A stretch of DNA of 64,000 nucleotides from Thuidium tamariscinum (lineage: Eukaryota; Streptophyta; Bryopsida; Hypnales; Thuidiaceae): the NCBI GenBank assembly GCA_947034885.2, contig OZ019759.1, positions 2,482,501 to 2,546,500 of the forward strand, written 5' to 3'. The position numbers were made by a program, and so were the translations under genes. Below the pieces are notes generated by a model. It ran no database searches. It saw nothing but the letters and a program-made list of their open reading frames with translations, and was not told the origin of the DNA. The first letter of the stretch is position 1; every line of letters starts with the position of its first letter. Shown in pieces: positions 1,202 through 38,547 of the stretch.

Positions 1202-1346
1202 ATAGTAGGCCTTGGGTTGGTTCTATGTGAATGATTGCTCATTATCAAGTATTCAGCAATTTGTATCCCTATCATTCAAACATATTTTATGCTCGAGTTG
1301 AGAATTCCTTCATTTCTTAATGTAGTGGTCTTTTGTTCTGTGCAGA

Positions 1347-6394: not shown

Positions 6395-6447
6395 ATTTAC
6401 AGTACAGCGGTGCTATTCTGTGAGCCTGCGAGCGTGAGCTTGTGAGC
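6395..6447 (+). repeat. Left TSD and TIR of element 1
   Basis: Duplication ATTTACAGTA at 6395-6404, then the terminal repeat from 6405 with several GAGC/GTGAGC words in tandem. Confidence 0.93.
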
Positions 6448-6864
6448 ATGGAGCAGGGATTCTGTGAGCTTGGAGCCCAAACATAGAAAATACAAAGTTG
6501 AACTCAATTTTTAAGGAAAAAAACAAATATTCCTACATTTTTGGTAACATTTTTATTTTATTTAAAAATTACTTGATGTATTTGTATAGACCTATGACCG
6601 TGGACTTATGACCAAAGATATGTATTATATTTGTCAGAGTTGAGATTTCTAAAAATGTACATAGAAAAGTAAGTTTGCATTGTTAAAAATGTAGACTTGG
6701 CAAAGTTTAAATAATGAATAATGGTAGAGACAAGGCTATATAGAAAATTCTACCAAATATCAATATTTTTCCAAAGAAAAATAAATATAACTGAACCTAG
6801 ATATTTAAGTTGAAACTAAAGTCTTTCATCTACAATTTTCAAGCACCCATAGATTCCTAAACTT

Positions 6865-9800
6865 CTAGATACGTTGAAGATCATCATTTGGAATATTGAT
6901 GATACCAGCCTTAATGAGGAGGCACTTCACTTCATTGAAACTGAAGCTTGGAGAATGAATGAACTTGTCTTCCAAAAGGTCCATTTTGCAAAAGTAGCGA
7001 AATAAGTAGTAAAGATGCTTGCAATTTACGTACTGATGGCGCCCACCAATTGCTGAGACAGCCATATCCACAAAATCTGGACATGTGCACTCCGAGTACA
7101 TACCCAATGTGATTCAGTAAACTTTCTGCTCGGACTCTGTTCCAAACTGAAGGGATATAATGGCACCTAGTCTAGGAAAGGGGAGCATAGTAACTCCCAA
7201 GATTGTTCTTTTCACATTCCTAGCACTTTCCCATTTATTGCGATGCTCTGTAGTAGGAGCATTGGCAATATGTCTAATAGGCTTGTTTCTTCGAGTAGTT
7301 GGATAGCTATCAACGTGTAAAGGAATGGGCTGATCATAGAGGACTGCTTCAAAAACATTGGACATTGTAAACAAGCGTCGAGGTGACATAGGTGGCCGAT
7401 CCTGGAGTTGAAAGCCAACTTCTTGCAATAGAAGCGTTTCTTGTCGAGTCAAGTTAGTACCCGTCAATATAGGCCATACGTTTGGAACTTGAGGCCAATC
7501 AATTACCCAATTACGTTTTGAGCCCTCAACACATCGATGAATATCATCTAGGCAGAACCAAAAATCTGTCATAATCTCCTTGTTTCCACCATATTGTTTC
7601 TTCCTTCCATGGTATGTTGGAGCTAGAGTGCCTTTGGAGCCCTTTGCAATTTTTGCAATACAACGAATGTTTGATCCTCGTTGTTGGGCTTGACATTTGC
7701 AGTTGGACTTGTAGGATAGTCTTGCAATATGCCATTTAGAAGTATTACAGTCACTCTCCAACGCGGTTGTTACATGTGGTAAAGGCTCAGGGGAAGCTAA
7801 TATATTTGTTTCCTTGAAGGCCTCTGTTGGTGTGCGTGTCGACCTCTACATAACTCGAGGTTGAGAGAAATTCACCTTATCTGGCCGATGAGAGTCTCCA
7901 TCAGAACCAATGGGAAGGTCAAGCTTCCGCTTACTACTACCAAAAACCTCCTCTCCCTCCAAGTGTGGAACACGAGTGGAAACATTAGCTGCTCCAGGAA
8001 GGACATTCAAGGCCTCTGCAATCTTTTTTGGATCACCACTGCGTCTTGCACTTCTTAGCTTGAGTTCCCCCTTTGATGGCCCTGACCTTGATGTAGTACC
8101 CTTCAAGAATGCTCGATAGTTTGTCATTTGCATGAAGGCTCGAATGCAATCATCACATGTGGCAACAAATAGATCATTACCTCGGTTACCCGATTGCTGC
8201 AACCATTTGTTATGTACAGTTTCAGATAAATTGCATGACGGCAAGTCTGCCATTTCTTCTACAGACAACCCCTACAAGGAAAAAATCGTAGTCAAATCAT
8301 GTATAAATACTATAAATACTATAAATATCATAAATACTATAGTATCCAAACTATAGTATTTAGACATGTAGAAACAAATTTTTTTTAAGACATTGCATAA
8401 ACCCTAAAGTATTTTATCTTATAACAAGCCATCAAGAGAAGCCTCTGTTCTAAAAAATGGTTTACTGCCTATTTAGTTTAATCTCAAAATCAATCTATGA
8501 ATTATATACTTCTAGAATTATTGATCTCAATAATAGGCATCCATCTTTGCCCGCGGCTCCGAGGGCAACATTACACCATTTATAAAGTGATCTTCAAATC
8601 TATCAAAAGTTACGTTTACTTAAAATTGGTACAGAAAAATTCAAATTAAATGTACAATGCTCTACAAACACAAAAACTAAGGACATGAATAAAGACTCAC
8701 CATTTGGGTGGTGCATCTCCATTGGGGATATCGGAAGTGCCAAAAGGCTAGCCACAACTCCAATTCTCGCAATGCATCTTCTGAGGCTGCACCAGATGAT
8801 AACCACCAAGATCGAATGGCCAAGTATTGTGTCTCAACTTCTTCCATTGTCTTCGACTCCTTGTATTGTTGGCATAAACGAGTATGTTGGTGTTGCATAT
8901 CTGGTTTCATAAGCTTCTGTGTATGTCGATGCATTGAAGTACTCCAATGCAAGAGGCATGTGCATTCACGGTTCACCATCTCTGTCTTGGGATCTCCTGA
9001 GCCGTATATGATACGAATAGCATTCCAATTTGCTTGCGCACTGTCAGCCATGAAGCCTTTAAAGTTTGGGCTTTCCACGCCATTGCGTTTCATCACTTCA
9101 TTTAATGACCTCCACATAATACATTGCACTTCTATGTCTTTAGATTGCATGTCACAGACTGCAATAGTCATGACCTTTCTGCACCTAGTGTCGTACACGT
9201 GGCAAGCCATAGTTGTCCAATATTGGACGCGTTTTAGATGGTCAAACATGAGCCACGCGTTCTCCAAATCTCCTCCGGGTTGCATGCGCTTCACAAGGTC
9301 CACACCACTACCGCGCCCTTCTACCAACATCTTAAATAAATATACTTTTTCCTTTCCTTGCCCAGGAAAAACACTGTCGTGAATATACTCAAATTTTAAA
9401 TTTCGTTTTATATTCATAATGCTACCTATGATCCCACCCTTTCCAGTGCTACGAAACAAAGAGATAGTATTTCGGATGTTAGGGGAACTTAGGTACTGGA
9501 ACCTATCCATCACATCCTCTAGTGACTTCCCTTGCAACATCTCTTTTGGTCCATCCCCGTCATGGATGAGATGGTTTTCTAGAAATTGCTTATTAGCTGC
9601 TAAGGCAATGGACGAGTTAGTGGCACTGGGAGTTCTCGAGACTTCACCAGCTATCAACTCCGTAATAGTGTCTAACGACTCTCTACATGTTCCAGAAGCC
9701 ATAAGATGCATGTGGTTTCCTAAATGGATGCATGCCCTGGACATCACAGTAGTGTCGTTGAAAACATAGTATACTCTAGCATCACAGACACTAACACAAT

Positions 9801-10858
9801 GAGGTGGAATCTTACAAATCTTACAAAGTAGAGTGGAATCCTTGGGAGGGCCAGCATCAACATAGAAAGGGACAGAAGTATAACCACACCACTCACTTTC
9901 ATTGCGTTTTGACATTCTTTTGAGGTAGTCACAGTCAGAGTTGTTACATACCAAGTGGCCAACGCAGGAGGATTTCCTAAACTTCAAGCCATCGTCGTTA
10001 TGAATGTTGGATGTCATGGTTCGACACCAAGCATGACCATCATAACGCTTGTCCATACCATGAAGATTCCTGGCAGCAGATGTTGAAGATGAAGCTCGAA
10101 GAGAAGGCAACTCGAACACCACGTCTCCATCAAAGTCCGAAGGTAGATATTGGACTTTCTGATGTATAATAGAATCGTAGTCTAATGCAGCAATTTCGTT
10201 TCGAGATCCACGAATAGATACCAGCTTGCGAAGGCACCCAATGATACTAAGTGGTAAAGAACTATTTGGACAAATTGGAGGGCAAGAGTGAGTGGATAGA
10301 GCAGGACTAGTAGAAGATGTGCTATATTGATAAGAAGTTGGTTTCAAGTCCACTTGTAGAATCCTATGAGGGAGAGATTCTAGCAAATTTAGTTGGTTAG
10401 GCGACTCTCCTTCAGACTCACTAGATAAATCTATGATAGGAGATACAAATTCTTCTCACACGGACAAGTAGAACAGGTGTTCTAGTTTCCACTGTGTGCT
10501 CACATTCCTTTAAATCCAGAACATCACGCCAAACAAGCGGCATATCAACAGTGGAATAATCAGATTGGCGAGGAACGACATCATTGGAAGCACCAATCAA
10601 AAGAGATGTCAAGCCATAAGCTCTATAACGTCCTACATGAAGGTGCCAAGCATGACCATCATCGACTACTAACTTGAGGACGTGAATAGACTCTTTCAGC
10701 ACTCCAGAGTCAGACATGACCTCCTCCTCGACATAGATACTGGACTGGACAAAACCGAATCTAACATGAAGGAGATGTGAAGATATTACAGCAAACCCTC
10801 CTTCTCCAAGCGGAAGGACTAAAGGTATCTTATGGCCATCCGCCCGAATAGAAACCAT
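6865..10858 (-). pseudogene. MULE transposase with GCM-like finger, DDE core and SWIM domain
   Basis: Two exons: 10858-8701 ending in a GTGAGT donor, and 8271-6865 after a TTGTAG acceptor. The main frame (10386-8677) holds a GCM/WRKY-type zinc-binding region at roughly residues 115-230 (GHAWC, SSCVGHLVCNNSDC, LCKIC, LGNHMH). The RNase H core follows: MFDHLKRVQYW near residue 382, FKGFMADSAQANWNAI near 448, C-x5-H near 476, then LSETVHNKW early in exon 2 as the likely catalytic E. The C-terminus is a SWIM finger (ECTCPDF ... NCKHLYYLF) near 7085-7000. Damage is light: a frameshift near 10450 separating the first 145 codons, an in-frame TAG at 7846-7848 and a TGA at 7114-7116. It would mobilise element 1; a more decayed relative lies at 30640-27410. 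Confidence 0.82.
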
Positions 10859-13277
10859 TGACGATCAAACTAGAAGTCAGTTAAAATCATAGGGACATGA
10901 AGCAAACTAGGTAAACTTAGAACAACAAATCATTGATTGAGTTCAGAAAGTAAAGAATATAAGGGTGTGAAATTGTCTCGGACGCGCGCCTAAAAAGGGT
11001 AGAGAATATCGCCGCTAGGATGTAAGTAGTTGTTAGAAAATAATATTGTCAGTACCTCCATAATTAGGATATTTGAAATGGCCGCCTAGAACTCCCTCAA
11101 GGATTTCATTCATTATGAAAAAGGATTGGTTCCCAAGTGTCAGAGAATTATTTGAAAACCAACAACCGTGTCTTAAAGAGAATTGATGTACATTCTATCA
11201 AGTTCTATTTTTTGAATACACACCTACCTCAATCTTCCTTTGAGGAGATCAAAATAGTCTTCATAGTTGGATATTGAAGACAACGCAAAATTATATTCAA
11301 TATGTCCAAAACCGAACAATTTCAAATAAAAATTTCACGAGGACTCTATAAATCTATACAATCTTCATTTGAATTTGGTGTCCGTTCATTCTGGTTGTAG
11401 TAGTGGCATAGAGTACATTAGTGACTTCCCTAATGTTTACACTTGTGGTAACGGAAACATAATCAACATGTTATAAATATAGTTATAGTGATACTAAGAG
11501 TCTATTTCCAATAGAGCCAGATTGCAATATGTAGTATTAGTCTCATGCTAGCGGCAGAGGAGATATGTGAGGCTAGTTCTCCAATCAGAAGGAGGAAGAA
11601 GAAGTTGTATTTTTCTTCACAGAAAGAGTTGCAGCGGTCCTGGAAGAGAGCACATACAATTCCATCGAGTGAAAATGCCATTGTAGTAGATCGCACTAGA
11701 AACTTGTATGAAGTCACAGATAACCAAGGAAAGGAGTTGATCAAAGAGACTCTACAGACATCGCACTTGCGTGAGAAGGAGATAGCAAGAAGCTGCAGCC
11801 CAAGACCTAGGCTGCACATACTTGTAAGTAAATTCTCTCATTAGACACCATTTGGATTATATTCTTCGAACTTCAATCTTATTTCATTGTACTAGGATTA
11901 GGCCATAAGAAAGTCGACTTCATATTAGGATTCAAGATTTTGATCTATAACCAATTGAATTATGACTTCTGAACATTTGATAGCTCTATTACAGACCTAT
12001 TGATGGTTGCTTGTCATCAATATTCTAGGCTACCTCATTGAGATTCAAAACCATTTGCCTTCGCATAAACACTTTTGTAGAAATGCTTCACTTAAGCTAT
12101 GTGTCCAAGTACTCTATTGTACTAATAACTGAAATCTAGAATATTTATGTCATTTTGATTGAATTAAAGGTATTAAAACAAATTGTAACAAAGTGTCATC
12201 CTTCATTAATCAATAGTATACAAGTTAAAGGGCTTGTGTGTACAAACATGTAATAAACTAATAAAAATTTGAAGATACAATCAAAATCTAAAGGACTCGG
12301 ATAAATACTAATTTCTCCTCTAGCCTTTGACTAGAGATTTAAGTATGTGAAGGTGTAAGGCAGAAAACCCAATATGAATTTTCTTATATTTAATAACATG
12401 CCATATAGATTAGTGTTGCTCATTGAAATGCACAACTAGTCCACATATGAGAAAATAAGCAATTACAAGGTGATGTGCTTTAAAATAGGTCAGTCCAAAA
12501 AATATTCATCATTCAATCATGGTCCTTTTTTCTACTCCTCAATAGTTTCTCAAATGACACATACTAAGAAACCATAGAAAGATTCATGCTCTTCAGCATG
12601 TGAACTCGAATATGTATGAATGAACTTCCTGAAGCTATAAATAAACAAATTGATAAGTGTATAGTATAGTCTTCTTGCAATGTAGGAGAAAGAGCTAAAT
12701 ATTTTAGCCTGTTTCATGGCCCTGTGGCAAGAATTTGAAGTTTAGTTGGTCATATTTAAATGTATCATGAGAGTAGCCAATATAATAGATTTTATTCAAA
12801 ATAATAATATTCATATTAGAAAAAAAGTTCCAGATAACAGAGTCAAATTTCAAAGAATTTGCATTTCCACGTATATCTCAGTTCAAGTAGTATCTCATCA
12901 GATAAGAAATTTTCCTAATGATGAAAAATGGTCTTAAGTAGTCTAAACAAGTGACCATGACCATAGAGCTTCCATAACCAGAAATTTGATAGACAATTCT
13001 CTTTCAAAAAAAACCTAATCACTTGACAACCCCGAAACCCTAGAGCAAGCTTTGCTGAGACGGAACGCTTCAGGTCGTCGGTGTGGTTTCTCCTCTTCGT
13101 CCCACTTACTCCCATTTCTTCTACCTTTGAAATCTCTCTATTGTAGGAAGTGGAGGACTGAATCTCCGTGCTACGGTATGTAGAGAAACCTTGACTGTGT
13201 GTTAACTAGTACTAAATTGTTGAAATTCGAACTAGTACTGAGACTCTTTGTCTTGTCTGTGAAAGAGTGGCAGTGCA
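10859..13277. promoter_or_regulatory. Divergent intergenic region between the two genes of element 1
   Basis: AT-rich, 2.4 kb, lying between the start of the transposase and the start of the ParB-methyltransferase gene, so it must hold both promoters. An unassigned plus-strand frame at 11545-11844 (RRRKKK, a basic and glutamate-rich stretch) ends at a plausible GTAAGT donor near 11824 and could be a small exon; I recognise no domain in it. Otherwise I see nothing definite. Confidence 0.5.
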
Positions 13278-16200
13278 ATGGAGACGCGGCGGAAGACCAG
13301 GAGTACAACGCGTACTAGCGATGGCAGTGACGGCGAAGCGAGTGGGAGCGAGGAGTAAGGTCCAGCCCTCAAAATCCCTACGTTAGTTGCAACAAGCAAG
13401 GAGGTGGTGGCAAATCCCGTTACAAATGTGGTGGCAGCTCCCATCACAGAGGTACGTTTATTCATAACTACCTTTCATCAAGCGTTTCAACCTACCAGAT
13501 GAGGGAGAGGATACTTCGGATCAGATTTCCAGCTCCATCACTTCGCATTCAGCCATCTGTGTCACTGCGACTCAATCCCTGTGTAAACTGAAATTTTAGG
13601 GTTTATTTTTTGTCTCCCGTAATCTCGCAGATAGCGTAGACTGAAATAAATGTGAAGACTGATCGTGTAGATCATCTTGTTCGAGGGGCGTATCTGCACT
13701 TGTCGAGTAGAATTGAGGACAAAATCCATCCTCTCGTCGGGCTGCGTCGATTCTGATCCAAGATTCCGTAGCCTGCCACTGATTTGGGGATTTTTTCTCC
13801 GACACTATGAGCTATGATCCTCAGATCAACCTAGAGTCAGACGGTTATTTTCTCTAAATTTGCCAAGGCGTGTCGTGATTAGGATGGCTTAATAGTGAAA
13901 TATGATCAGTTTTTCCGTATCCTTGGCTCGTTAATCTGTCGTCTGGCTCGGTAGTCTCTGTACTGATTCAGTGAAAATCAATCAGCTGCATCCCTGTTTG
14001 ACAAATGAACACACCTGCACATCGATTTGGGGTTCAAAGAATCAGTAAACTTCAGACAGTCTGAAGGATGATAGCGACCGGAATCGGTATCGACAATAGT
14101 CAGAGCTTCCATCGGCGCCGATGGGTGTTCGGTGAATCTGAGGAATGCAACACCCTCAAACATTTCTCCGATTGACAGCTCCGAGAAGTAGCTCCGATGT
14201 AAATTAATTTCTCCGATTGGGAGATGCGTAGTTTTCAAATCTCCCAGATCGAGGCAACGTTTGAAATTTCGTCGATCCTACCTGTCGATCCTACCCCATC
14301 TGGCTCCATTTGGCGCCGAGGGAGTCTTCTCGGATCTCTCTGGTGACTTCGCAGCACACCGATGTTATCGATTCCGGGACCTCCGATTCCTGCATTCGGC
14401 ACCAAGGGTTGAGCTCTGATCAGTGCATCCCAGAGTCCCGATCGAGTCTGGGTGCAACACCTGTCCCCTTCGGCGCCGAGGGTCAACTTCGGTTAAAAAA
14501 ATTCTGACCTTGACCAGACTCCAGTTTCTTGAATCTCATCTCAACTACAAAGAGTTTATAAAATCATCCAGAAAGTAAACCTTCACAGCTCATTCAACTA
14601 CTTCATTTTATTACGTAATGATAAAGATATACTCCATCCAGAGCTGAGAATTGTATGTACAATAACAGTATCATCCTGAGATACATCAGCCCGGTATAGT
14701 ATAAGTGAGGAGACGACATGTTCGCATTGTTAAAATTAACGAATAAAAGATAACACACTGATTATACAGTCTCTTGAATAGGGTTTTAATTTACCAAATG
14801 AGGTAATACTCTTGGACTCGCGACCTGACTACCCAGTTTAGCTTCTCGATTTGACGCTAAACCGCTTTGAAATTCCTTATTCCGAGTTTGAAGAATGGTG
14901 TGATTTGTCTGTGATTGAGGAAGACTATTTCTGTTCACCGATGGCCCTGGATAATAATTCCACCGATCCAACGAAGGAGCATGATTACTGATTCACCCAT
15001 TCGCCTGAATCTCTTGAGATTCCGGTCTGTAAATATTAGTTATATCGCCTGACCTGCGCTCACTTTGTGCACCAGAAAGACACAGAGATTTTACCTTTTT
15101 CAAAGCTTCACCCCATTGTACTTGCAAGAAAAGTATCTACACCTCACCCACCCCTACTGGAGGCTCCGGGAGGAAATCTTCATTCGGGGACTTCTTTCCC
15201 GCCATTCGCAACTTTCTGAGATGTATATCAGATCCTGATGTTGCTCCTCGGTGCTGGGGAACAACATCTATTAGGTATGATTCACTCGGTTTTCATTCGG
15301 GACATCACGAAGAGACTACCTGTGCATCATCATTGATGCAGGGCTGCTGGAAAACGGAACTAGTTGTGTTCAAGTCTGGGACCTGCGACTCTCCCCATCG
15401 GCGCCGAGGGTACCTAATAATGTATGCCTGGGTTTGGAAAATTGTTGGATCACTTGAATCACGAGCTCGGAATTGAGGAAGTGATCGGTAAGATTAAACT
15501 ATTGGACTCTTGGGGTTAGGGATGACGGACCATGCAGCCTCCCCTCGGCGCCAAAGGTCCTCCGCTAGATCTGTCTCGTTGACATTCGGCCTTGTAGTCT
15601 GACTTCAGTACAAGTTTCTGCTACTTCGCGGGCCCCCTCGGCGTCGATGGTGCCAATCAGGAACTCACTGGTTGATCTTCGATCTTGAATTCCAAGTGCA
15701 GTATGAGTATTAGATACTTCAGATCCTCCCTCGGCACCGATGGGACCGACTCAGCAGGGGGTGTTAGACCTCAGCCATCGCTGAAATAGACTTGTCGTTT
15801 GTGTCCTCCAAGTTTCCTTTCTTTGAATTTTTAGAGACAGTTACCTCCCCTCGGCGCTGATGGTTGTTAGCCAGAATTCAGTGGATGATATCTGAAATGA
15901 CAATTTCTACTCGATTCAATTCCATTTTGACTGGGTCCTATTTGCATCTACAATGTAATTGATAGTATCAATGTTATAAATTTGAGAGTCTAGAAAAAGA
16001 ATGTGCCCTCGACGCCGAAGGTACCTTTGACCCCTGGCTTACCGTTCAGAAATTACAATAGTTTCTTAGCACACTGTAATTAACTAGGTGATATTTGTTT
16101 AATTCTTAAACCTTATTGGCCAATATCTTCTTATACCTTTATCTTAAGATTAACTTTATTCGGTTTCGTGTGTAGACATCAGATGCAATAGCAAATCCTT

Positions 16201-19200
16201 CGGAAGTCCAGCCTTCGATTTCAACTCATGTATCGGGGCATGAAGACATAGGGGGAAGTGAGACGGATGACGAGATGGAGGCCCATGAAGAAGCCATGAC
16301 TGAGGATGCTCTTAGAAAATCTCAGAAAGTGAATTCTAATGCATCCATTGCCGATTTGCGAATGAAGCTCATTCCATCTCACGTCTCATGATTCCCTTGT
16401 GTCGTATGGTTGTTATGCCAATGGTGAGGCCAGCATTGCAATGTGATCTCACGAAATTGGAGAACGACTTCGTGACTGGGTATAGAGATGGGTCAGCAGT
16501 TTTTTATGTGTCCGTTACGAATGAGCAGGGTGAAGAGGAGCAGTTTTCAGATGTGGAGAAGAAATCATGGGGTGCACATTGGCATTCTCAAAATGACATC
16601 TTCAATGACGTTTTGCGTAAATCTCCTGGTTTGGAGCATCTTCAGAATTCTAAGTTTTTTGTGTGTGATGGTAACCATCGACTTCTAGCATGGACCGCAT
16701 ACATCCATAAACATCACAGTGATAATAGAGAGAAGCATATATCTGTGGACTCCATCATTCTAGAGATCAAAGGCAAAGTCAGTGCTGCCATGCATGCTAT
16801 GCACGACATCAACAAGTATGTCCACTCACTTCTCTCATTGATCTTCATTGTATATTTGATTGGATTCATATTTTTATTGAATGATGTCTCTAATGGTGTT
16901 TTGAAATTGACTTCAGGCAGACGGAGAGTTCTTTCATCAAGACTAGTTTAGTCTATACATTGTATCGTGTTCGTAAATATGGGACTCTACCTTTGGAGAG
17001 GTTTTCTGAACATCTGAGTTCATCTGAGATGGCACAATGCAAGCAGAACTTGAGGAAAAGCTGGTACTCTATGTCTATAGAGGTTTTTACATCCTTTATC
17101 TTTCGGGTAAGGCTTCATGGATACTTGACACTTGGGCTTTCAATCATACATCCTTGCTCACAATTTGAATCTGACTTGATTATTTTTTTAATTTGAATTC
17201 ATGTGCAATATGAAATATCAGCCGCTGCAAATGTAGCGGTACGCGTTTACAAGGAGGAGATACCGGAAGAAGAACAATCACTTGAAGGCATTTGTGAGGC
17301 TATGAGGGTTGGAAGCAAGGAGAAGGCTTCAAAGTTGATTCAGAAGATGGGGAAGCTTGTAGTTGTTGCGAATCCTATGCTAGGACATGAATGGCTACAA
17401 GAGGTATGTACATTGCCGAGAGTAAACTTATGTGTTTTCCAATCATCGAACTATTCTGATTGTCTATCTTTTCTTGTAGGTTGAGCGTCATTGGAGCTCT
17501 AACATTACTCCGGAGATGACCCTTGAGAAGCTCCAATTGATTGCCACATGCAATGTCAAATCTGAGCAGAAGGTCAAATGGCTTCGTTGGTAGAACGCAT
17601 CAATTCAGACTAGAGAAGCACGTCGGTTTCCATTGAAGCCAGTGGGCGAAAATGAACTAAAGTCCTTTCTTACAAAGGCTTGTTGGTATGCAGGGGTATG
17701 TATTTTTATTTAATGCAAATTCATTGAATTTTTGGGTGTAATTGCAGTTTCGTTGTTATGGTACATGATCTTGTGTTTTCATAAACAATTTATGTTGTTT
17801 TCCTGATATCTTTTTCCTATTCTTATAGATTGAAGATATGGGCACTAAAATGTTTGACAATTTTGTCAAAAAGGATCGATTACACTTGACTATGGACTCT
17901 CCACAAGAACCAGAGTCTTTCTCCGATTACCTTGAGGGATGGAGAATCAGGGTTTGGGATCATGCTTTCTTGACGTACTTCAGAGGACACGAGGTGTTCA
18001 GGAAGTCAGATGACTTTAGGAAATACAAGGGCACTGACCTTGTGGTTAAACGGGTCCTTTATTGGTGCGTATTTCCTTCTTAATTGACTTTTTATTTTTT
18101 GTTTTGAATTTGATCATGGTCATTGAATGCTTCATTTGTAGCTCATGACTCATTACTTTTTTTACAGATATTTCAAGTTCGAGTTATTCACAAAAGGAGG
18201 CATAGCCAAAAGTGATCTTCCGTTATTTCTTGGATTTTGGGTGGATGTTTCTTCAGAGCACTGTATTTTCTCAAGTGCCCAAATGAAGTGGTGGACAACT
18301 GCCCATCTCAAATCTTGTGCATGGTATTTAGAGTGTCCACCAGAGTACACACCACTTCCGGAGGAGCACCTCAAGCGTTCTATCAACTCCCAAAGAGTTG
18401 AATTGGATTTGGGGCAATTTGCCGGTCTTGATGAAGATGCCAAGGCCAAAGCTATGAAGAAGAAAGAAGAATTGGAGACGAAAATTGCTCTCAAGAACTC
18501 TGAGGCTGTGGACAAGGCAAAGGAGAGAAGTTCGAAGAAGTCCAAGAAAGTTGATGACTCCGAAAAGGCAACTACAGCTAAATCGAAGGGAAAGGCTTCG
18601 AAGGTACAAGCTCCACCTCCATCTACCAAGGATGAGAGTTCTCAACACCAGCAGGCTCATTCTCGTGGTACTAAGCGAAATGCAGACTATATATCTTTGA
18701 GTGAGGATGGCGTGGTGCATGGCCCTTCAGCTCTGGAGTCCCTCAGTGATTCGGAGATTTCTATCCATGAGTTTATTGTAAACTCGTCCCTTGCTACAGT
18801 ACTAGGAGATCCATTACCACAAGTGTATCATGACGTTCTACACTTCGTTGATCAGGTTGGTATTATGTGTTTTCACAAAGTATTTTGAGATTTTGTTTCT
18901 TTATTGAAAGTGTGCTTTTACTAATTGTGTGAATTGTTTTTCAGCACAAAGGGTTTAAGGTGAGGTTTTTCAAGGGAGTACAAAGTGAGAAGCCTCGCTT
19001 GGATTTAATGATTACAGACATGCTTGAGGGTTTACCGGTCCCAGACTTATCTATATCTCCTACTACTATTCCAAAATGGAATATGGAGTCTCCTACTTGG
19101 CTTCAACAAGTGTTTGAGTTTGCAGATGGCCACCTTCATGATGATGGAGCTCTCATCATCATTCATCCCTTGATGAACACGACTAGAGCCAACATTCTAG

Positions 19201-20535
19201 GATATGCAAAATTCTATTCTTTTCAAAAGAAGAAGGACTGGTGGGGGATGAATCGGCTTCATCTTACTTCACCCGTCTCTCCTTCCTCCATGGTATTCAC
19301 ATTGAAATTAAATGTTTTCTTCTATGAATTTCTTTTTTGATGAAATTCAAATAGGTTCCATTTTCTGTTGTTTGCAATTATCTTTAATTTCATTTAGAAA
19401 GTAATTTTTTTAGAGCATGCTGTTTTAAATTCACTGTGATTACATCTTGATGTCATTTTCTATCTTTGTTAGTTTTGATTCTATAATTTGTTTTTTACTT
19501 CATTTTTATAACTTTCAACCAATTGTTTTTGCAGATACAACGGTTTGGAATTGTGTTATTGGTTAGGAAGTTCGATGACGGCAAGCTTCCTAAATTCCAA
19601 TTTCAAGCATGTCCAAAGTTGAAGGAATTGGGGGTGGATGTTGCTCTTGACGACATCCTTCAAAATTATATCAAGAAAGAAACTCTAGCTATAGACACCA
19701 ACTCCAAGCTTTGGAGAGGTACACGAGAGAAGGATCCCTGTTTCCTTCAGATGTTGATTCAAGCTTCATCTCTCCCTAGCGATGTCGTTATGGATTGTAC
19801 TGCAGCGACAGGTATTGTTTATGTCTTCTCAATTTCATTTTGTTCTATAAACTCTTGAAATTTAGTGCATTCTTCCCTCAATTTCTAATTCCTTCTCTGA
19901 TTCTTTATCTATTGCAAGGGGCTTCTATTCATGCCTGCAGGGTTTTGAGTAGGCATATTATTGCACTTGAAGAGGACAAAGCCATCTTTGATGCGGTTTT
20001 GGCATCAATGATTCGAACGGAGTCTACTGTTACAACTTCATCTAAAGGAGTTACAGTGATTTCAGACGATCCAGATGCAGAGGAAGTTGAAGTCCCACTC
20101 ATCGTAAAGAAATCTCGTTTCAGTAAGTAAGTCTGTCCATCTGTTGTACTTTTATTCTAAAATGTGAGTAGAATTCATTATCAATTTATTTGCAACCGCA
20201 TTGCTTCCTTCTTTTAACATATATAAGATTTTAAAGTTTTTTCTAATTTTCTACTTTGTATTTGCAGCATGATTTCTAGTGAGACAAGTCATCGACCATT
20301 TTTTACTTTACCTGGATTTTTCCCAAGCCCGGAAAAGTCCTATGTATTGCCATCTTATGCAGAGGCATTAGCTTCATCATTTGCTTCTACAGATGACTTT
20401 TCTATAAGGAGCAAGTCTAGAACTTCAGTTCCTACAGTTTTACAGTATATGGATGTCACAGCCGTAGAATCAGAGGACACATCATCGACGGATAGTAGTG
20501 ACCATTCTAAATCTATGACTATATTGTCATCTTGA
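13278..20535 (+). pseudogene. ParB-like plus beta-class DNA-methyltransferase-like gene, 11 exons
   Basis: Exons by GT-AG sites and frame: 13278-13451, 16176-16815, 16917-17106, 17203-17403, 17480-17695, 17829-18064, 18168-18855, 18945-19292, 19535-19811, 19919-20126, 20268-20535 (about 1,150 codons). Exon 2 encodes a ParB-like domain with FFVCDGNHRLLAW. Exon 7 is a charged KSKK-rich linker. Exons 8-10 resemble a permuted DNA methyltransferase: DLMITDMLEG (place of motif IV DPPY), DDGALIIIHP, then near the C-terminus DCTAATGASIHACRVLSRHI-IALEED (FxGxG motif I plus acidic SAM-ribose position). ParB joined to such a methyltransferase is a bacterial/phage arrangement. Catalytic PPY is absent, so activity is doubtful. 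Lesions: TAA 13356, frameshift near 16388, TAG 17591, a TGA formed at the exon 6/7 join, and exon 4 acceptor reading AT rather than AG. Confidence 0.72.
14109..16023. repeat. About nine GGCGCC-centred palindromes in intron 1 of the ParB-methyltransferase gene
   Basis: Variants of CCCTCGGCGCCGAGGG lie at 14109-14124, 14310-14323, 14467-14482, 15395-15411, 15541-15558, 15635-15651, 15728-15745, 15847-15864 and 16005-16023. Divergent copies keep the CTCGGC..CGA layout (CCCTCGGCACCGATGGGA, GCCCTCGACGCCGAAGG). All are in the 2.7-kb first intron (13452-16175). A further copy, CCCCTCGGTGCCGAGGGG, is at 21134-21151 near the right end. These are GC-rich islands in AT-rich surroundings and differ in sequence from the TATC...GATA palindromes of the neighbouring element. 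Confidence 0.85.
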
Positions 20536-21953
20536 TTCTGGGTTTTTTATTACTCATCATTTAACTGATATTTGCTTCTATTATTTTGCATGTGTTTTGA
20601 TTTACTTACAAAGTTACCAGTTTGAATCTAAAATTGTTTTACTTTGTATTTCCTCTCTCTTTCCAATTTTAGGAATTATACATGAATTACTATTCACCAG
20701 ATTTTGAGAATACGCATTATTCAGTACATTTTTGATATTGAAGCCATCTTCTACAGGTCTTTAAATGCTAGACATAGGTCCCTCAACAAATTCTTTCTAA
20801 ATATCTCCTACCTCCAGAGTAAGTAGTCATTAGAAGTTATTTGAGAACATATTCTCGGTTTTGAGCCAGATGTTCATTCTTGAAAGATTTTTTAAAATTT
20901 ATAGAAAGAGCATGAAAAAATCAAGTACAAGATGGGAGAAATTTATCCAGTTCTGGAATCACTGGTCATTCGTAACCACTCACATTTTTGTCTTAGAACT
21001 AGCTTGATAAAATATTTTTCTCCAATTTCTAGATTATTTTGATCAGTCAACATCTTGGCGCCTAAAACTGCCATAGGAAATCCTAAGGCTATGATGAATT
21101 TTTTATTTCTTAAATGGTTGTAAGTGTGGGGCTCCCCTCGGTGCCGAGGGGTACTACGAAACGAGTTACCATTAAAAAGTAAATTTACGTAAAATAATGT
21201 CATATGATTTCTGAGAAATTATAATTTGTCAACAATTTTTTCCTTCTTAATATTCGACAAAGTTCAATATAGTCCTACTAATCCAAAAATTGGAATAAGA
21301 AATAAAAGGGTCCGAAATCATTTATTTTTCTCACTTCACATCGAAGTCTCGTCAGCAAAAATAGATTTGAATAATATTCTTTTTATTAACACTACAATCT
21401 CCAACAAAAAAATAGGGTATAAAAATGAAAAATGTATTCTTACAAATACAATGGCTTCCTCCTTATGAAAAGGGAATATGAAATAAAATACAACTTTGCA
21501 TCTACCTATAGGTGTGAAGCAATATATGATGGTGTTATAGAATAAATATTATATTCACCAAGCACAAATATCGCCCCTCAAAGAGGGTTTCAAATGAACA
21601 TTTCACTAGCACGGGTTTCAGCAGGAAATGAAATGGGGGGGAAATGGATATATCTATTCCTACTAAAGTAATATCTTCTTTCTAAAAAGGTTCAAATGGA
21701 ATATGAAATACAAAATAACTTCTTGTCATCTTTGGATGTGAGCTTAAGAATTCTCACAAGACTAATTAGGGTGTTTCTGAAAATAGAGATTTTTACACCA
21801 AGATTTATTTGTTTACTTTTGATTGTCAATTACTAAATTGTTCAAGGGACCACGGTGATAGGTCCACGGTAATAGATCCATGTTAATAGGCTATCAAATT
21901 TATTTTAAGTTAATAATATTTGGCAAAAAAATTTAGATTGAATCTTTAAAAAA
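20536..21953. other. Right non-coding arm of element 1
   Basis: AT-rich 3' flank of the ParB-methyltransferase gene. Contains the palindrome at 21134-21151 and the subterminal CCACGGT motif cluster at 21848-21869, which mirrors the motif at 6591-6604. No coding region. Confidence 0.6.
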
Positions 21954-21999
21954 GAGGTAGGCTCACAGGCTCACAAAATAGCAACCCTGATTTACAGTA
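21954..21999 (-). repeat. Right TIR and TSD of element 1
   Basis: Two GGCTCACA words precede the inverted end AATAGCAACCCTG at 21989, followed by the duplication ATTTACAGTA at 21990-21999. Confidence 0.93.
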
Positions 22000-25714: not shown

Positions 25715-26165
25715 GGTAAACCTGTAATTTTCTCAAAATTCAAGCAAGTATCCAATTATGTCCAATTTCACATGGGGAATGGACAAAAAAAAATGTAGAA
25801 GTTGGAATGGCCCTAGACCATTGGAATCCATGAGGGATTTTGGTTTCACAAAAGGGAGCATGCCCAATTCTATTTCCATTCGGAGCAATGGCTAAACCTG
25901 CCATTTTCTCAAAATTCAAGCAAGCATCCAATCATGCCCACTTTCACGTGAGGAATGTACAAAAAAAATACGTAGAAGTTGGAATGGCCCTAGACCATTG
26001 GAATCCATGAGGAATTTTTGTTTCGCCAAAGGGAGCATGCCCAATTCTATTTCCATTCAGAACAATGGCTAAACTTGCCATTTTCTCAAAATTCAAGCAA
26101 GCATCAAATCATGTTGAATTTCACGTGGGGAATGGACAAAAACAAATGTAGAAGTTGGAATTACC
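25715..26165. repeat. Tandem repeat, unit about 176 bp, roughly 2.5 copies
   Basis: The word TCAAAATTCAAGCAAG recurs near 25733, 25909 and 26086, with long flanking identity (the GGAATGGCCCTAGACCATTGG block near 25804 and 25981, and GGGAGCATGCCCAATTC near 25853 and 26031). Period is 176-177 bp. Such lengths are common for plant satellite monomers, but this is a short array. Confidence 0.85.
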
Positions 26166-26863: not shown

Positions 26864-26955
26864 GTAGAAAATGCAACGACGCTAGCGCTCGAGCGTGGAG
26901 CGATGAGCTTGTGAGCTGCGAGCGTGAAGGTTGTGAGCGGTGAGCCTGAAGCACC
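26864..26955 (+). repeat. Left TSD and TIR of element 2
   Basis: Duplication GTAGAAAATG at 26864-26873, then the terminal sequence with repeated GAGCG / GTGAGC words to about 26950. Confidence 0.88.
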
Positions 26956-27409
26956 TTTTTTTGGAGAAATTTCAGTTGAATTTTGTTTTTGGTTGACTTT
27001 TTCAAAAATTAGAACAAATTCTTTATTATTTATAGTAAATTTTGGTACCTATGACCGTGCCTCCTATAACCGTGGATTATCATAGAATCCTCTACTTTAG
27101 GGCAATTATTGTTTAGTGCTATGTATTTAGAGTTTATAAATTTTTTTTCTGAACCATAGCAAAGAATATGCCAACCACTTTAAATACAAAGACTTGTATC
27201 ACATTCCAATAGTAAATTGTATTTTTTTCACTACCCGGAATGTATATGGACAATTCCAAAAGTGAGTGAATTAAAGAAAGGTAAAAAAATAGAAACACAT
27301 GCCAAAAAAGATGCCTTCAAAATTAGAATATATCATTCAATTGCTCTATATGTAAAGAAATATAATATGAATGTAATACACACCAAAAACTAACCATACC
27401 TACTTAGAA

Positions 27410-30400
27410 ATAATGATGATCTTTGCTTGAACTAGAAATAGATTCAAGTCATTGAAGCTATATCTAAGTGCATAAATGAATTTGTCATCATGAATATCCA
27501 TCTTGCAAAATTACCTATACAAATAGTATAAGTGCTTACAATTTACACATTGCACTTTTCTTTTGACAAGTGATACTACTATACTGATAAAATTAGAGCT
27601 TATACATATAGGATATAAGGAAATATACCAATTGTCACTTGATATACATTTTTATTTGACTCCTCCCTAGTCTCCAACACCACTATTGCACCAAGTTCTA
27701 GAAGAGGTATAAAGATTACTTCCAGAATTTGTCCTCTAATATTTCCAACACTTTTCTATTTGTTTTATTGTTCTTTAGTTGGATCATTTGCAAGTCTTTT
27801 AATTGTTTGGTTGTTCTTTACTATTGGATGTGCATTTAGATTTGGTGGACATGATTGGTTGAAAAAGACAAGTTCAAAAATTTTAGCCATTGTAAAGAAT
27901 TTAGTTGGCAATAATGTGGGCTAGTTGTGGGGGCAAAAACTTGCATCCTATAAGAGTAAAGTCTTCTCTCGATTGAGATTGGTCCATATTAGTATAGACT
28001 GAATTTCAAGTAGCTCTGGCTAATCAATGACTCACTTCTTCTTTGTACCTTCTACACATCATTCAATGTCATTTTAACAGAAAGAGAAATCCACCACCTC
28101 TCACTTAGTTCAAAACTCTTATTTTCTACCATGATATGTTGGAGATTGGGTTTCCTTTCTATCCTTTGCAATCCTTGAAAGTACACTTGATGTTTGATGT
28201 TTGTTGTTGAGCAAAGCATCTTGCACTCAATTTGTATTTGATCCTTGCAATATGCCACTTCAATGTGTTACAATCGCATTTGCATACTACCAAACATCAC
28301 ATAGTAGAGAGGATTGACATCATTGCAATTTTGAGTACCTTTTATTAAATCTTCTATAAACTTTTTAGACCATATTTGAAGTTTTGAACGTATGGCTACA
28401 AGAAGTTGACTTTGTTTGATCTATATTAATCTCTTACATCACCAATAGGTACATCAAGTATCTTCTTTGTGCTTCCAAAAATTATTCTCCTTCTAGATGT
28501 GGTACTCAAGTTCCCACACCATGTGCTTTTGGCAATGTATTCAATACTTTTCCAATTTTTTTGAGGCATCTGGTGCATCTTGCACCTCTCAACTTCAATT
28601 CCTCCCTTTGATGATCTTGACCCTAATGCATATTTGCTTAGGTATGTTCGGTAGTTTGTCATTTGCATCCAGGTGCAAATATTGTCAAAACAAGATTCAT
28701 CAAACAAATTATTTTTTCTTCTTCCTAACATTTATAGCCACTTATTATATACCATTTTAGACAAATTATAGAAAATCATATACATCATCTTTTCTAAAGT
28801 GAGACCCTACAAATCCAATTATAGCAAAAAATGAGTACAAAATGGAAACACTATTGTCATGCCAATTATATTTCAAATTGCTTTGTATAGTTTCAAGCAT
28901 TTTAGTACAAGGTTTTAGGTCTAAAAGAGTATAATTTGAAAAGAATAAATAAATAGAATTTAAGAAATTTGTAGTATCCTGATTTTTTATATGAGATTAA
29001 AAATCTAATAAGATTGTACCTTGAAGTAGGTTGTCAAAGTTGCTCTAAACTCCAACGCACCACTTATAGAATGCAATGATTAGAGATATTTAGAACCATG
29101 AAATCCAATGGATTCTAAATACAATTCTTTTTTATATAAGAATAAAAATAGTGAAGGATTATATCTTCAACTAGAAAGTGATTCAAAATGGTCATTACTA
29201 AAGGCTATTTGAAGGGGGAGTTGAAAATGAAGGTATACTTAGAGCCGTCAGATCCAAAGGATGTCAAAGTGATGGCCCATACTAGTCCCATTTTAGAACC
29301 TTTCAAATTCTTATTACGATAAATTTTCAATCACTTGCACTAAAATATTTCACTAATTAGATCTAGTTATGAAAAAAATTCTTCCACTATCAAATTCAAA
29401 TCTCTAGTCTTCAATTTCTAATAGAATATAAAAATATTTTCAATACCAAAAGAAGATTCAATTACCATTGTCATGAAGCCTCTCCATTGTAAATATTGGA
29501 TATGCCAAAATGTAAGCCAGTGGTCTAATTAATGAAGTGAATCTTCACTTACAACTCTACATGAGAACCACCATGATCTAATTGCAAGAGAGCATGTCTT
29601 CGCTTCATTCAAAGTCTTTGATTCTTTGTATTGTTTACATACTGTAATGTACTATTGTTAGAATGTTTATTTGATGTGCTTCTATATAAGTTTGTAAATG
29701 AATTATTCCTATGTAGTAAACAAGCCCTCTCATGATTTTTTAAGACCTCATTTGCAGAACCACTACCATAAACAATGCAAACCACATTCCAATTGACCAT
29801 TTGACTATAGCACTATCTACCATGAACTCCTTAAAATTTGGCATATGCACTCCTTTTTTTTCACTTCAGTGTTTAACAACCTTCAAAACTACACTTGGAT
29901 CTCCATATCTTTTGATTTCATGCCACAAATTGCAATAGTCATTTCTTTCTTGTACTGAAAGTTGTACATGTGGCAAGCCATGGTGGTCAATTGTTCAAGT
30001 GCTTTGCATGGTCAAACATTATCTACGCATTCTGTAGATCACTTCCAAGTTGCATGTGCCTCATCAATTTGACTCTACTTCTAGGTCCTTCAATGAGCAT
30101 TTTGAAGATGTAAACCTTTTCTTTGCTACGGCTTGAGAAGATGTTATAGTGTATGAATTCAAACTTGGATTCCCACTTCATAGTCACAATTATGTCAATG
30201 AACCATTTTTGGTTGTTTGAACATAAAGAGGAGATGATATTCCATATACTACTATTTAGAAACTTGAAGCAATCTATGACCCCTTCTATTTCCTCTCCTT
30301 TTAAGATCTACTTCACTCCCTTTCTATGGTGAAATGAGTGGTTCATGAAATCTATACTAGCGGACAAGGCAATGGTGGAATTTGTGGCTATAAAAGTTTT

Positions 30401-30640
30401 GGCAACTTCATTAGCAATGAGTATAGTAATTTCTTTTGTAGAGTCTATATACATGATTTTTTCTATTGAGTGACTATGATTTCCTAAAAGAATTACAGCC
30501 CTACTCAAATTAAGGTTCTTACTACAACAATAGAAAATCTTTGCATCACAAGTGTCATTTTAGGAATCAATTCAAGAACCTTCTCCAATGTCATTTCAAG
30601 AATCTCGTTCATACTCTAGTGCCTTTCCATCTACACTAGC
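27410..30640 (-). pseudogene. Decayed MULE transposase of element 2
   Basis: Fragments on the minus strand keep the order of the element 1 transposase. At 30508-30308, SRAVILLGNHSH and ATNSTIALSA match MSRACIHLGNHMH and ATNSSIALAA. At 29800-29609, NWNVVCIVYGSGSANE matches NWNAIRIIYGSGDPKT. Near 28731-28426, MQMTNYRTYL matches MQMTNYRAFL, and near 27600-27430 the SWIM region is still recognisable at DNA level. Many stops and frameshifts. The N-terminal part is missing, cut off where an inverted fragment of the partner gene begins near 30714. Confidence 0.75.
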
Positions 30641-30713
30641 AATACATCCATTTTTTTTTGTCAAATTTAAAATGAAAAATAAGCAAAAGCAAAGTCATGC
30701 AATATCTTGAAAT

Positions 30714-31150
30714 TTAACTCACTTCTGTAAGGAAGCCAAGCCTATTAGAGGGATGAGCCACTATTAATAGTAGTTTGTCCATTTTTACCATCAAAGTATT
30801 AGTTCTCTCTTTTGCTTTCGTCTTTACAGCATGAATGACCTCTTTTAGCCTTTTGTTGCTTTTTGGTGTGGCATTAATATACTTTCTCATTGCAACATGT
30901 GCTACTTGAAAATATCTTGGTGCATGATTACCCCATTTTTTCACTTAGTTATCAAAAAAGTTTCAAAAGCATGCCAAACAAAAGGATTTGAATTTCTTGA
31001 AGAACATTGTATTTTTCTTTAAATAAATGATGTAAAAACCTCCATAAGTACAATGTATCATTTTTTGAAAACCATGCTTTCAAAACACCTTTTCTTCTTT
31101 GTGAGGCTAAGTAAGTAGATTTGTGAATCATTCACCAGCAAAAGTCTATA
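30714..31150 (-). pseudogene. Inverted fragment of the ParB-methyltransferase gene (exons 3-4)
   Basis: On the minus strand, YIVLMEVFTSFI near 31060-31020 matches exon 3 of the element 1 gene (SMSIEVFTSFIFR). At 30944-30714, FQVAHVAMRKY ... MDKLLLIVAHPSNRLGFLTEV matches exon 4 (ISAAANVAVRVY ... MGKLVVVANPMLGHEWLQEV). A second copy of the same exon 3 block lies on the plus strand at about 33550-33715, so element 2 has partial copies of this gene in both orientations. Confidence 0.65.
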
Positions 31151-31623
31151 CTTTTGCACTTGGTACAAAGTGAATGTCATATTCTACTCAATTTCAAAGC
31201 TATCTTTTTAGTCATGGTTTCAAAATATTTGAAAAATAAACCTTTGAAATAATCAATGGTATCAAAACTAGAAGTATCTTTCAACATCCTGTAAAGTTTA
31301 ATTGGATTCAACAGACCTTTATGGGGTGCTTGGAGGTGCCCTTCTTTTAGATACCCTGTTGAATTTCAAAACTATCTTTTTAGTCATGGTTTCAAAAAAT
31401 TAAAAAAATACTTTTTAAAAATTCAATGGTATCAAAATTAGAATTAATTGTAAGAGTAATATAAAGTTTAGTTGTATCCAAGAGAAATTGGGGGATGCTT
31501 GTCCAGAACTACCTCTCTTTTTAAAACCCTGCTGAATTTCAAAACTATCTTTTTGGTTATGATTTAAAACACTTAGGAATTTCTTTTTAAGAAAAAATTA
31601 AAGGATACCAAATTATGAGTATT

Positions 31624-31687
31624 ATGAGGCACTTCCAAGTTCCAAAAGGTCCGTCGGATGCGACGGACCTTTTTGAGGTGCCTCATG
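31624..31687. repeat. Foldback centred on GTCGGATGCGAC
   Basis: Arms AAAAGGTCCGTCGG and CGACGGACCTTTT are contiguous around the centre. Outer arms ATGAGGCAC (31624) and GTGCCTCAT (31679) extend the stem. Confidence 0.85.
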
Positions 31688-31879
31688 GTACCTCCAGTTT
31701 AGGTACCCTACTAAGTCCAAAATTAAATTTTTGGTCATAGTCTATAATTTTTTAATTTTTTTTCCTATATTAAGAATTAATCAAGAGAATTATATGCTAA
31801 ATTAATAAATAAAAATTCAAATTTTTTTATACTATGACCAAAAAATTGATTTTGGACTTAAAAAAGTACCTAAATTGGG

Positions 31880-31946
31880 GGTACCATGAGGCACCCCAAA
31901 AAGGTCCGTCGGATCCGACGGCCCTTTTGGAGGTGCCTCATAGTAC
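31880..31946. repeat. Foldback centred on GTCGGATCCGAC
   Basis: Same design as 31624-31687: outer arms GTACCATGAGGCACC and GGTGCCTCATAGTAC, inner arms AAAAAGGTCCGTCGG and CCGACGGCCCTTTT. It lies close to the middle of the larger inverted repeat. Confidence 0.85.
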
Positions 31947-32465
31947 TCCTAATTTGGGTTCCTTGAATTTTTCAAAAAAAAAATTTCCTAAATTTTTTAA
32001 ACCATGACCAAAAAGATAGTTTTGAAATTCAGCAGGGTATCTGAAAGAGAGGTAGTTCCAAGCATCCTCCAATTTCTTTTGGATCCAAATAAAATTTATA
32101 GGACTCTAAGAATTAATTATAGTTTGTATACCATTGACTTTTTCAAAATTATTTTTTCAATGTTTTGAAACCATAAGTAAAAAGATAGTTTTGAAATTCA
32201 GCAGGGTACCTAAAAGAGGGGCACCTCCAAGCACCCCATAAAGGTCTATTGAATCCAATTTAACTTTATGGGATGTTGAAAAATACTTCTAGTTTTGATA
32301 CCACTAACTTTTTCAAAGGGAATTTCTTTCAAAATATTTGAAACTATGACCAAAACCTTAATTTTGAATTCAATTGGGTACATAAAAGAGGGGAGCACTA
32401 AGTACCTTAAATGGTCTATTGGATCCTATGGAACTTTATGGGGTGGTTGGATACTTAGAATTAGA

Positions 32466-32525
32466 GTACCATGAGATACCTAAAAATAACCCGCTTCTTT
32501 TTGGAGTATCTCATGGTATCCCAAT
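32466..32525. repeat. Decayed member of the same foldback family
   Basis: Arms GTACCATGAGATACCTAAAAA and TTTTTGGAGTATCTCATGGTA flank a short loop; the central GGATCC core is gone. Confidence 0.6.
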
Positions 32526-33362
32526 TTTGGATACCATTGTAATATTCTTGTAGAAATCTTGAACTTTCAAAGGATTCTCTTTTGATGAACATTGATCATT
32601 TTAGTTATTCTTTCTATAAGCTAAGTAATCATTCAAGTGAAATTTTTGAACGATTGGAGATCTCAAAAATACTACTCATGTTTTAGAATCAGATGTCAAA
32701 TTTAATAAACTAAAACCCTAGCTACAAAGTGAATAACCATGCCATACCACTTTGCAAAGTGAATACTTGCCATTTTCTATTTCCAGATTTTGTGCACTCA
32801 AGCTTCAATGATTCCATCTTGCCAATGACAAAAGATCGTAGATGCCTAAAAAACAAGAATCATTTTTTTTCAAAATATTTGGGTCTACTCAACTGTTCCA
32901 ATTTCAGATTTTAGAACCTTTGAAGAAGTTCCTAATGAGATACTTATAGCTATGAGAGGGAATTTAGGAATTGAAATTTTACATTTGATTAAGCCTACCA
33001 AGGACAATAAATTTGAGCTCAGTAAAGCTTTGAAATTTCAATTGATTTTTGATTCTACATACATTATTCTTTTGTAGAATTCTTGGATAGCCTTTCTTGG
33101 ATCAGGGCTTTATACCTTTGATAATTGTATCCGAAAGAATTTGCTTTAGTTTTTAGCTGAGTTTCTAATTACATATAAATTTTCGATTCCAGACATGCTA
33201 GAGTCAAATAAGCTTGTTTGAGGGCATTTTTCTCTTACTTGTGACCCTCAATCCAATTTTCTATCGAAATTAACTAGAAGTGTTGTACTTTAGCGCATAA
33301 ACGCACTCTTTTGGTGGTTTTGCTTTCTTTTTTTCAAAAATGCCTTGTTTAAACTGCTCAGT

Positions 33363-33458
33363 GTGCCAAAATTGGGGGTACCACAAGATACTCTAGGAAA
33401 CACTGTCGGATCCGACGGTGTTTCCTAGAGTCTCTCGTGGTACCCCTAGAGTTGGCAC
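33363..33458. repeat. 96-bp foldback centred on GTCGGATCCGAC
   Basis: Arms GTGCCAA ... GGGGGTACCAC and GTGGTACCCC ... TTGGCAC enclose a perfect inner stem (ACTCTAGGAAACAC / GTGTTTCCTAGAGT) around TGTCGGATCCGACG. It shares the GGTACC arm and the TCGGATCCGA core with the foldbacks at 31.6 and 31.9 kb, but the middle of the arms differs. Confidence 0.85.
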
Positions 33459-33549
33459 ATTGAGAAGTATGTTTAAAAAATTATGTGAAATCATTTTTTG
33501 TTTAGGGTTTTTAGTTCAAATCCCAAGGCTTTTGCAAGCCAAAGAAAAC

Positions 33550-36184: not shown

Positions 36185-36479
36185 GACTCACGGAATTGAC
36201 ATATTTTGTGACTCAAACTATTGTATGTTTCCTTCTATTCTGATTGGATTTGTGTGTTTTATAGCTACATCTTGATACTTTATGGTATTCATTTTCATTT
36301 TTCATTGTATGAATTATACTTTAACCAACAACATTTCAACGTTCTCCCCTAAATACCAAATTCTAACTCAAAAAGATTGATAAACTTCACCCTAAAACAC
36401 TAAACCACGGTCATGAGACCCCCTTCACTTATCCACGGTCATAGGTCCAAAATGAAATTATTCCTTAAAAAAAATTCCC

Positions 36480-36549
36480 GCTCACAGGCTCACAGGCTCA
36501 CAGGCTCACGCTCCTAGGCTCGCCTGCTAGCAACCCTGGTAGAAAATGA
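36480..36549 (-). repeat. Right TIR and TSD of element 2
   Basis: GGCTCACA is tandemly repeated, followed by GCTAGCAACCCTG ending at 36539 and the duplication GTAGAAAATG at 36540-36549. Confidence 0.9.
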
Positions 36550-38515: not shown

Positions 38516-38547
38516 TATTCTCTATTTGTTGACATATTATTTGCAGA

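Follow-up and report, generated by a model that had tools for sequence, protein, structure and literature searches.

Introduction

Mutator-like elements (MULEs) are recognized by terminal inverted repeats (TIRs), target-site duplications (TSDs) of 8–11 bp, a SWIM-like motif and extra open reading frames (ORFs), according to the accessible text of a MULE survey (PMC6446971). The anti-silencing VANC proteins have their targets in noncoding parts of VANDAL elements, where these targets form tandem repeats (accessible text of PMC10398659). The ParB fold has been surveyed across the domains of life, and the accessible text of that survey describes its fusions to N6_N4 methylases as more frequent in phages (PMC12704722). 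We analyzed a stretch of 64,000 nucleotides from the moss Thuidium tamariscinum (assembly GCA_947034885.2, contig OZ019759.1, positions 2,482,501 to 2,546,500, forward strand; the window). It holds what is very probably a Mutator-superfamily transposon with two genes. The second one diverges from the transposase gene; its product combines a ParB/sulfiredoxin (Srx)-like domain with a domain of permuted N6/N4-methylase fold, altered in its catalytic motif, and has a long middle region between them.

Results

Two elements with the same pair of genes

One end sequence, present as inverted copies, marks the limits of two elements: A (near 6405 and 21989) and B (near 26874 and 36538). Element A spans 15,585 bp, and its 10-bp duplications are flush with its TIRs. 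The features of both elements are as follows.

6395..6404, no strand: left TSD of A, ATTTACAGTA, the same as 21990–21999 and flush with both TIR ends
6405..6476 (inner limit approximate), + strand: left TIR of A, begins CAGCGGTGCTA, holds TGTGAGC repeats, pairs with 21961–21989
6868..10864, − strand: transposase gene of A, with a GCM-like N-terminal part, a Mutator/IS256-like catalytic domain and a C-terminal CxC..CxH (SWIM-like) motif
21854..21989 (inner limit approximate), − strand: right TIR of A, CAGGGTTGCTA outermost, subterminal ACCGTGG-type repeats
21990..21999, no strand: right TSD of A, ATTTACAGTA
26864..26873, no strand: left TSD of B, GTAGAAAATG, the same as 36539–36548
26874..36538, no strand: element B, decayed, 9,665 bp, with transposase (−) and ParB/methylase-like (+) remnants (TIRs, TSD, protein similarity)
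27403..30559, − strand: transposase remnant of B, ∼37–57% identical to A at the amino-acid level in the main alignments, many stops
30747..31204, − strand: third fragment of the ParB/methylase-like gene, inverted within B (exon 3, E = 0.012; exon 4, E = 5.6e-5)
33545..36161, + strand: ParB/methylase-like remnant of B, counterparts of exons 3–7 and 10
36539..36548, no strand: right TSD of B, GTAGAAAATG

Outermost at the right ends of A and B is CAGGGTTGCTA, of which the two left ends carry a degenerate version; inward of these bases come TGTGAGC-type and then ACCGTGG-type repeats. The duplication is perfect (10/10 bases) at both elements and falls within the MULE range. In A, the transposase gene on the − strand and the ParB/methylase-like gene on the + strand stand head-to-head, and both genes lie inside an element bounded by TIRs and TSDs twice over in the window. 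B shows the same order, at roughly 30–57% amino-acid identity to A over the two genes. The preliminary description of this DNA had proposed two elements of different age; both genes are indeed found in A and B, which differ in decay. B is full of stops yet has a perfect duplication, so it may have transposed in an already defective state, with help in trans. The exons 8–9 and the ParB exon have no counterpart that we could find in the B remnant.

The transposase gene of A is read in five pieces (10864–10424, 10455–8680, 8271–7849, 7845–7117 and 7113–6868), the first two as overlapping frames where a relative, P0002, has a single one. Its DDE catalytic domain is of the Mutator/IS256 type and resembles that of ISCth4, which we take to be an IS256-family member. 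The SWIM-like motif is a candidate zinc finger of the SWIM/FLYWCH/GCM kind expected of MULEs. The Pfam MULE transposase model PF10551 had no match in the Pfam scans, and the family is divergent. The earlier assignment to Mutator-like transposons stands on the TIRs, the 10-bp TSDs and the ISCth4-like catalytic domain. Viral contigs scanned with the transposase queries and alignment gave no relative. Prokaryote genomes scanned with the alignment gave a single contig (L002), in a cyanobacterial (Synechococcales) metagenome bin. The relative at L002:1-4101 is 45% identical and has the SWIM-like motif, and the contig ends in AACCACGGTTAT, resembling the subterminal repeats of A and B; it is probably eukaryotic contamination of the bin.

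The second gene, its relatives and its linkage to the transposase

The second gene of A has the following parts.

13278..13360, + strand: putative exon 1, from an ATG up to a splice donor GT (judged by eye)
16176..16813, + strand: exon 2, a ParB/Srx-like domain with DGNHR (16667–16681) after an N-terminal stretch (78 listed homologues, structure model, ParB matches)
16918..18855, + strand: middle region without a recognized domain, lysine-rich stretch in its last piece (translations; counterpart in B)
18945..20127, + strand: methylase-like domain in exons 18945–19292, 19535–19813 and 19918–20127, motif IV first and S-adenosylmethionine (SAM) motif last (PF01555, CcrM model, 42 listed exon-7 homologues)
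19017..19031, + strand: motif IV, DMLEG in copy A, mostly D-x-P-E-G in the family (43 sequences)
20266..20535, + strand: C-terminal exon and stop (translation; weak counterpart in B)

Its + strand pieces are 16176–16385, 16403–16813, 16918–17112, 17221–17403, 17480–17590, 17594–17695, 17829–18065, 18169–18855, 18945–19292, 19535–19813, 19918–20127 and 20266–20532, with GT/AG at most exon borders as judged by eye. The peptides quoted in the preliminary description are all there: FFVCDGNHRLLAW at 16655–16693, DLMITDMLEG and GALIIIHP in exon 18945–19292, and DCTAATG at the end of exon 19535–19813, continued by GASIHACRVLSRHIIALEED in the exon from 19918. Some 500 residues separate the ParB-like and methylase-like domains, and this middle region has no credible Pfam match and none of the helix-turn-helix or dimerisation kind that marks canonical ParB partition proteins, which work with a ParA partner. 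Copy A carries three breaks: a frame break between 16385 and 16403, where the homologue consensus runs through unbroken; a TAG stop at 17591–17593; and a phase mismatch with no in-frame splice from 16918–17112 to 17221–17403 (by eye). These breaks suggest that copy A is non-functional.

We searched 5.8 billion proteins with the exon 2 and exon 7 pieces (E ≤ 1e-3) and obtained 135 homologues, from assemblies and metagenomes; of those listed (120), exon 2 accounts for 78 and exon 7 for 42. The existence of homologues led us to reject chance coding. A full-length search with the spliced query returned 4,547 candidates and none at E ≤ 1e-3, probably owing to exon-length relatives in the searched database. 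Pfam scans of neighbouring ORFs and of exons taken singly were uninformative, PDB sequence searches gave nothing relevant and Rfam gave no match.

Are the two genes linked elsewhere? Transposase homologues and ParB/methylase-exon homologues occur on contigs of equal size in three cases (18,151, 185,737 and 555,475 bp), and one ParB-exon and one methylase-exon homologue on contigs of 4,652 bp. The comparison covered 120 listed of 164 transposase rows and 120 listed of 135 exon rows (51 and 18 rows above 10 kb, respectively), and the other equal sizes fell within one set only. Equal size speaks strongly, if indirectly, for these being the same contigs, and the two long ones give no adjacency. 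These results bear on a Pack-MULE-style origin, in which the transposon would have caught a host gene, or pieces of one, that has no role in the element. MULEs do tend to take up host gene fragments (accessible text of PMC6446971). Against a passenger stand the recurrence of this gene, in matching orientation and order, in two elements whose transposases are ∼37–57% alike, the three equal-size cases and the conserved motifs. We rejected the passenger host gene on the two elements and the equal-size-contig linkage, and hold such an origin to be improbable.

A methylase-like domain with an altered motif IV

The spliced exons 18945–20127 matched Pfam PF01555 at E = 2.7e-5 (profile positions 31–218 of 221; 24.7 bits, just below the curated 26.7), the NCBIfam CcrM model at E = 1.8e-5 (23.8 bits) and PHROGs phage methylases at E = 1.2e-4. 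With the family consensus swapped in for exon 7, the PF01555 score rose to 29.9 bits (E = 6.6e-7). Exons 8–9 alone gave E = 1.1e-4, and the exon 7 consensus alone had no PF01555 match. A motif IV that precedes the SAM motif is the order of beta-class methylases. The PF01555 and CcrM matches, in permuted order, point to the permuted N6/N4-methylase fold named in the preliminary description.

Active N6/N4 DNA methylases have (D/N/S)PP(Y/F/W) as motif IV, and its aromatic residue packs on the flipped base. Among our 43 sequences, the first position is D in 43/43, the second is I, M, Q, V or L, and the third is P in 39; the aromatic position is E in 40, K in two and M in one, and aromatic in none. 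The corresponding place in copy B reads HCLENLP. The Pfam match begins downstream of motif IV. We nevertheless equate this site with motif IV because of a pairwise alignment with a Solobacterium phage methylase (VIADIPYNL versus ILADIPEGL in the family), the strand-D context and collinearity; in a Flavobacterium phage methylase the region aligned out of register. The SAM glycine loop is normally F-x-G-x-G, and in copy A, the single full copy available, the motif reads DCTAATGAS. The earlier wording, a bacterial-type DNA-methyltransferase fold, is unsupported if it means an intact enzyme, because motif IV lacks the aromatic in 43/43 sequences.

The domain might still be an active methyltransferase of unusual chemistry, with D-x-P-E in place of DPPY and either a substrate other than an exocyclic base amino group or an aromatic supplied from elsewhere, by which the element would mark its own DNA or a neighbour's. 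A selected function is indicated by the near-invariant D-x-P-E-G and other exon-7 residues across the 43 sequences, and copy A has the acidic IALEED with which the SAM-binding region ends. The missing aromatic and, in the one full copy, the glycine loop TAATGAS speak against activity, and we regard an active enzyme as unlikely.

Did both domains arrive together from a phage fusion? In the phage search with the consensus construct (tblastn), the 20 of 86 records listed were mainly annotated DNA methylases; the best (E = 6e-5) spans the SAM-motif part only. Searches with exon 7 alone and with the ParB consensus found none. The ParB exon had no close relative in prokaryote genomes (84,980 species) or viral contigs, and the methylase exons had none in viral contigs; these scans use short patterns, which bring only near relatives within reach. 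The preliminary description inferred an ancient capture; that the pair was taken up together from a phage or bacterium is a candidate origin only. The phage preference of ParB-fold/N6_N4 fusions noted above favours it, as does the phage methylase with ADIPYNL at motif IV, a match that is suggestive only as a hint of phage origin. The ∼500 residues between the domains, the lack of close relatives in these scans and the weakness of the phage match (E = 2) count the other way. Acquisition of the whole pair at once is a tentative idea, somewhat short of even odds, and would be compatible with the reading that we prefer below.

A ParB/Srx-like domain in exon 2

The structure model of exon 2 and its ParB matches agree with a ParB/sulfiredoxin fold, and the candidate nucleotide (P) motif DGNHR has its arginine in 75/79 sequences. 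The conserved arginine of the P motif has a nucleotide-motif role in the ParB fold (accessible text of PMC12704722). The profile and structure check called for in the preliminary description came out in part: the structure model is ParB-like, as had been claimed, and PF01555 was matched, whereas no Pfam model from the ParB clan was significant.

That missing Pfam match is one of several points that weigh against our account of the gene. For the ParB model, Foldseek reached no significance (best E-values 0.18 among viral structures and 3.9 in the PDB), VIA-align re-ranks only the list that Foldseek gives, and the model's confidence is moderate (pLDDT 74). Sequence matches to related families were also non-significant (DGQHR, 0.0045 in 1/79; DndB, 0.026 in 3/79; ParB-like phrog_1033, 0.039 in 14/79), and unrelated families reached similar E-values (KMP11, 0.0047 in 6/79; aroma_sacti, 0.02 in 3/79). 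Exon 2 could then be some other alpha/beta domain with a chance DGxHR motif; set beside the structure model and the conserved arginine, we find this quite unlikely. As for the methylase half, the CcrM score is far below that model's curated cut-off (23.8 versus 830 bits, an equivalog), the degenerate SAM loop (TAATGAS) is known from one sequence only, and a changed motif IV is no proof of lost activity, with D and usually P retained. Finally, both copies of the gene in the window are broken.

Palindromes in the central region

Two groups of 16-bp palindromes lie in the elements.

14109..16021, no strand: cluster of 10 matches to the palindrome frame CCNTCGGNNCCGANGG, intron 1 of A
31651..33418, no strand: three palindromes of the same frame in B, at 31651, 31906 and 33403

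At ≤2 mismatches the frame occurs 17 times in the window against 0.32 expected, a number reached in 0/100 shuffles, and all 17 lie inside the elements (10 in intron 1 of A, three elsewhere in A and four in B). With three mismatches there are 23 matches against 4.4 expected, five of them outside the elements. The frame is post hoc, drawn from the window's own sequence, and the three best sites of B sit in longer hairpin repeats, possibly an unrelated insertion. Near-perfect G+C-rich palindromes of any sequence number only three in intron 1 against 0.36 expected (largest count 2 in 200 shuffles). The contig L002 has no match at ≤2 mismatches, though the central region lies outside it. We treat the palindromes as a lead only.

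The bacterial site parS is a 16-bp palindrome. One could imagine a ParB-parS-like unit in a eukaryotic transposon, in which the ParB-fold protein would load at the palindromes and spread as a clamp gated by NTP, the altered methylase domain serving as its DNA reader. Such a unit would keep the chromatin of the element open or hold its two ends together. We consider this a long shot.

Other features of the window

Nested direct and inverted repeats, many ∼170 bp apart and including long hairpins, fill 31171–33468 between the two genes of B. About 700 bp to the left of B, a satellite-like tandem array (25717–26161) has a 177-bp unit in 2.5 copies with 89% matches. Degenerate repeats of TTTAGGG, the plant telomere unit, lie at 36805–36876.

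Another gene family is present in three related copies, at 1326–3700 (+), 38533–41386 (+) and 62842–64000 (−). In segments, the first and second are ∼48–58% identical and the second and third 55–90%. The first matches Pfam DUF7869 (1.1e-18), the second holds an ORF (39922–40314) with LDN..GHTH-N-DIDA, and the family shares noncoding downstream sequence at 4206–4350, 41832–41975 and 62318–62508. It looks like another transposon family. The G+C-rich (55%) stretch 57930–59666, where long ORFs overlap, stands apart from the remainder of the window; it is possibly a retroelement gag-like gene, which is a guess.

Discussion

Our preferred reading, to which we give a probability of about 0.5, is that the second gene encodes the element's own accessory protein, acting on the element's repeats, rather than a captured passenger. 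That its product is an accessory protein with lost or changed catalysis is slightly the better bet. The methylase-like half would have lost ordinary base methylation and been kept to bind DNA, or else a site in its methylated or unmethylated state. The ParB-like half, in which the nucleotide motif DGNHR is conserved, would control loading or spreading by NTP. The targets would be the subterminal TGTGAGC/ACCGTGG repeats or the central palindromes. Two outcomes can be envisaged: host silencing would be countered, as VANC does for VANDAL elements, or the transposase would be helped to assemble on the ends or to integrate them, a role proposed for mudrB. We see anti-silencing and assistance to transposition as the leading candidate roles, and anti-silencing taken singly is somewhat unlikely.

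How does the element compare with known systems? Within open-licence PubMed Central, a search judged by titles, the opening lines of abstracts and counts of terms brought up no MULE described as carrying a ParB- or methylase-like gene. The MULEs MuDR (mudrB) and VANDAL (vanB/vanC) share with it the TIRs, the TSDs of 8–11 bp, a second resident gene and, as a candidate zinc finger, the SWIM-like motif (accessible text of PMC6446971). They differ in that the genes are head-to-head here, and the accessible text of the same survey mentions no methyltransferase or ParB. The ISCth4 transposase is 9% identical, whereas here we have a spliced, two-gene eukaryotic transposon. The main text of the ParB-fold survey, as accessible, has no words beginning with "plant" or "transpos" (PMC12704722). 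The phage and prophage fusions of a ParB fold to an N6_N4 methylase (PF01555) that it describes join the same two folds in one protein, in contrast to which our protein has a long middle region and an altered motif IV and is encoded by a transposon of a eukaryote. A putative adenine methyltransferase of Solobacterium phage SMO_1P (L004) is 24% identical over most of the domain (E = 2, non-significant); it has ADIPY against ADIPE at motif IV, keeps the aromatic and a GSGS loop, and at 255 residues is a methylase only.

Taken together, the sequences suggest that a relative of methylases was retained by mobile DNA for a purpose other than ordinary methylation. Helper genes are known in the Mutator superfamily; one of them, VANC, strips silent chromatin marks from its own elements. 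If our reading is true, the moss element would carry a second, unrelated kind of MULE helper, built from parts best known in phages and bacteria, and would raise two testable questions: whether a bacterial-type methylase can be retained as a reader of DNA instead of a writer, and whether clamps of the ParB kind can function in the nuclei of eukaryotes.

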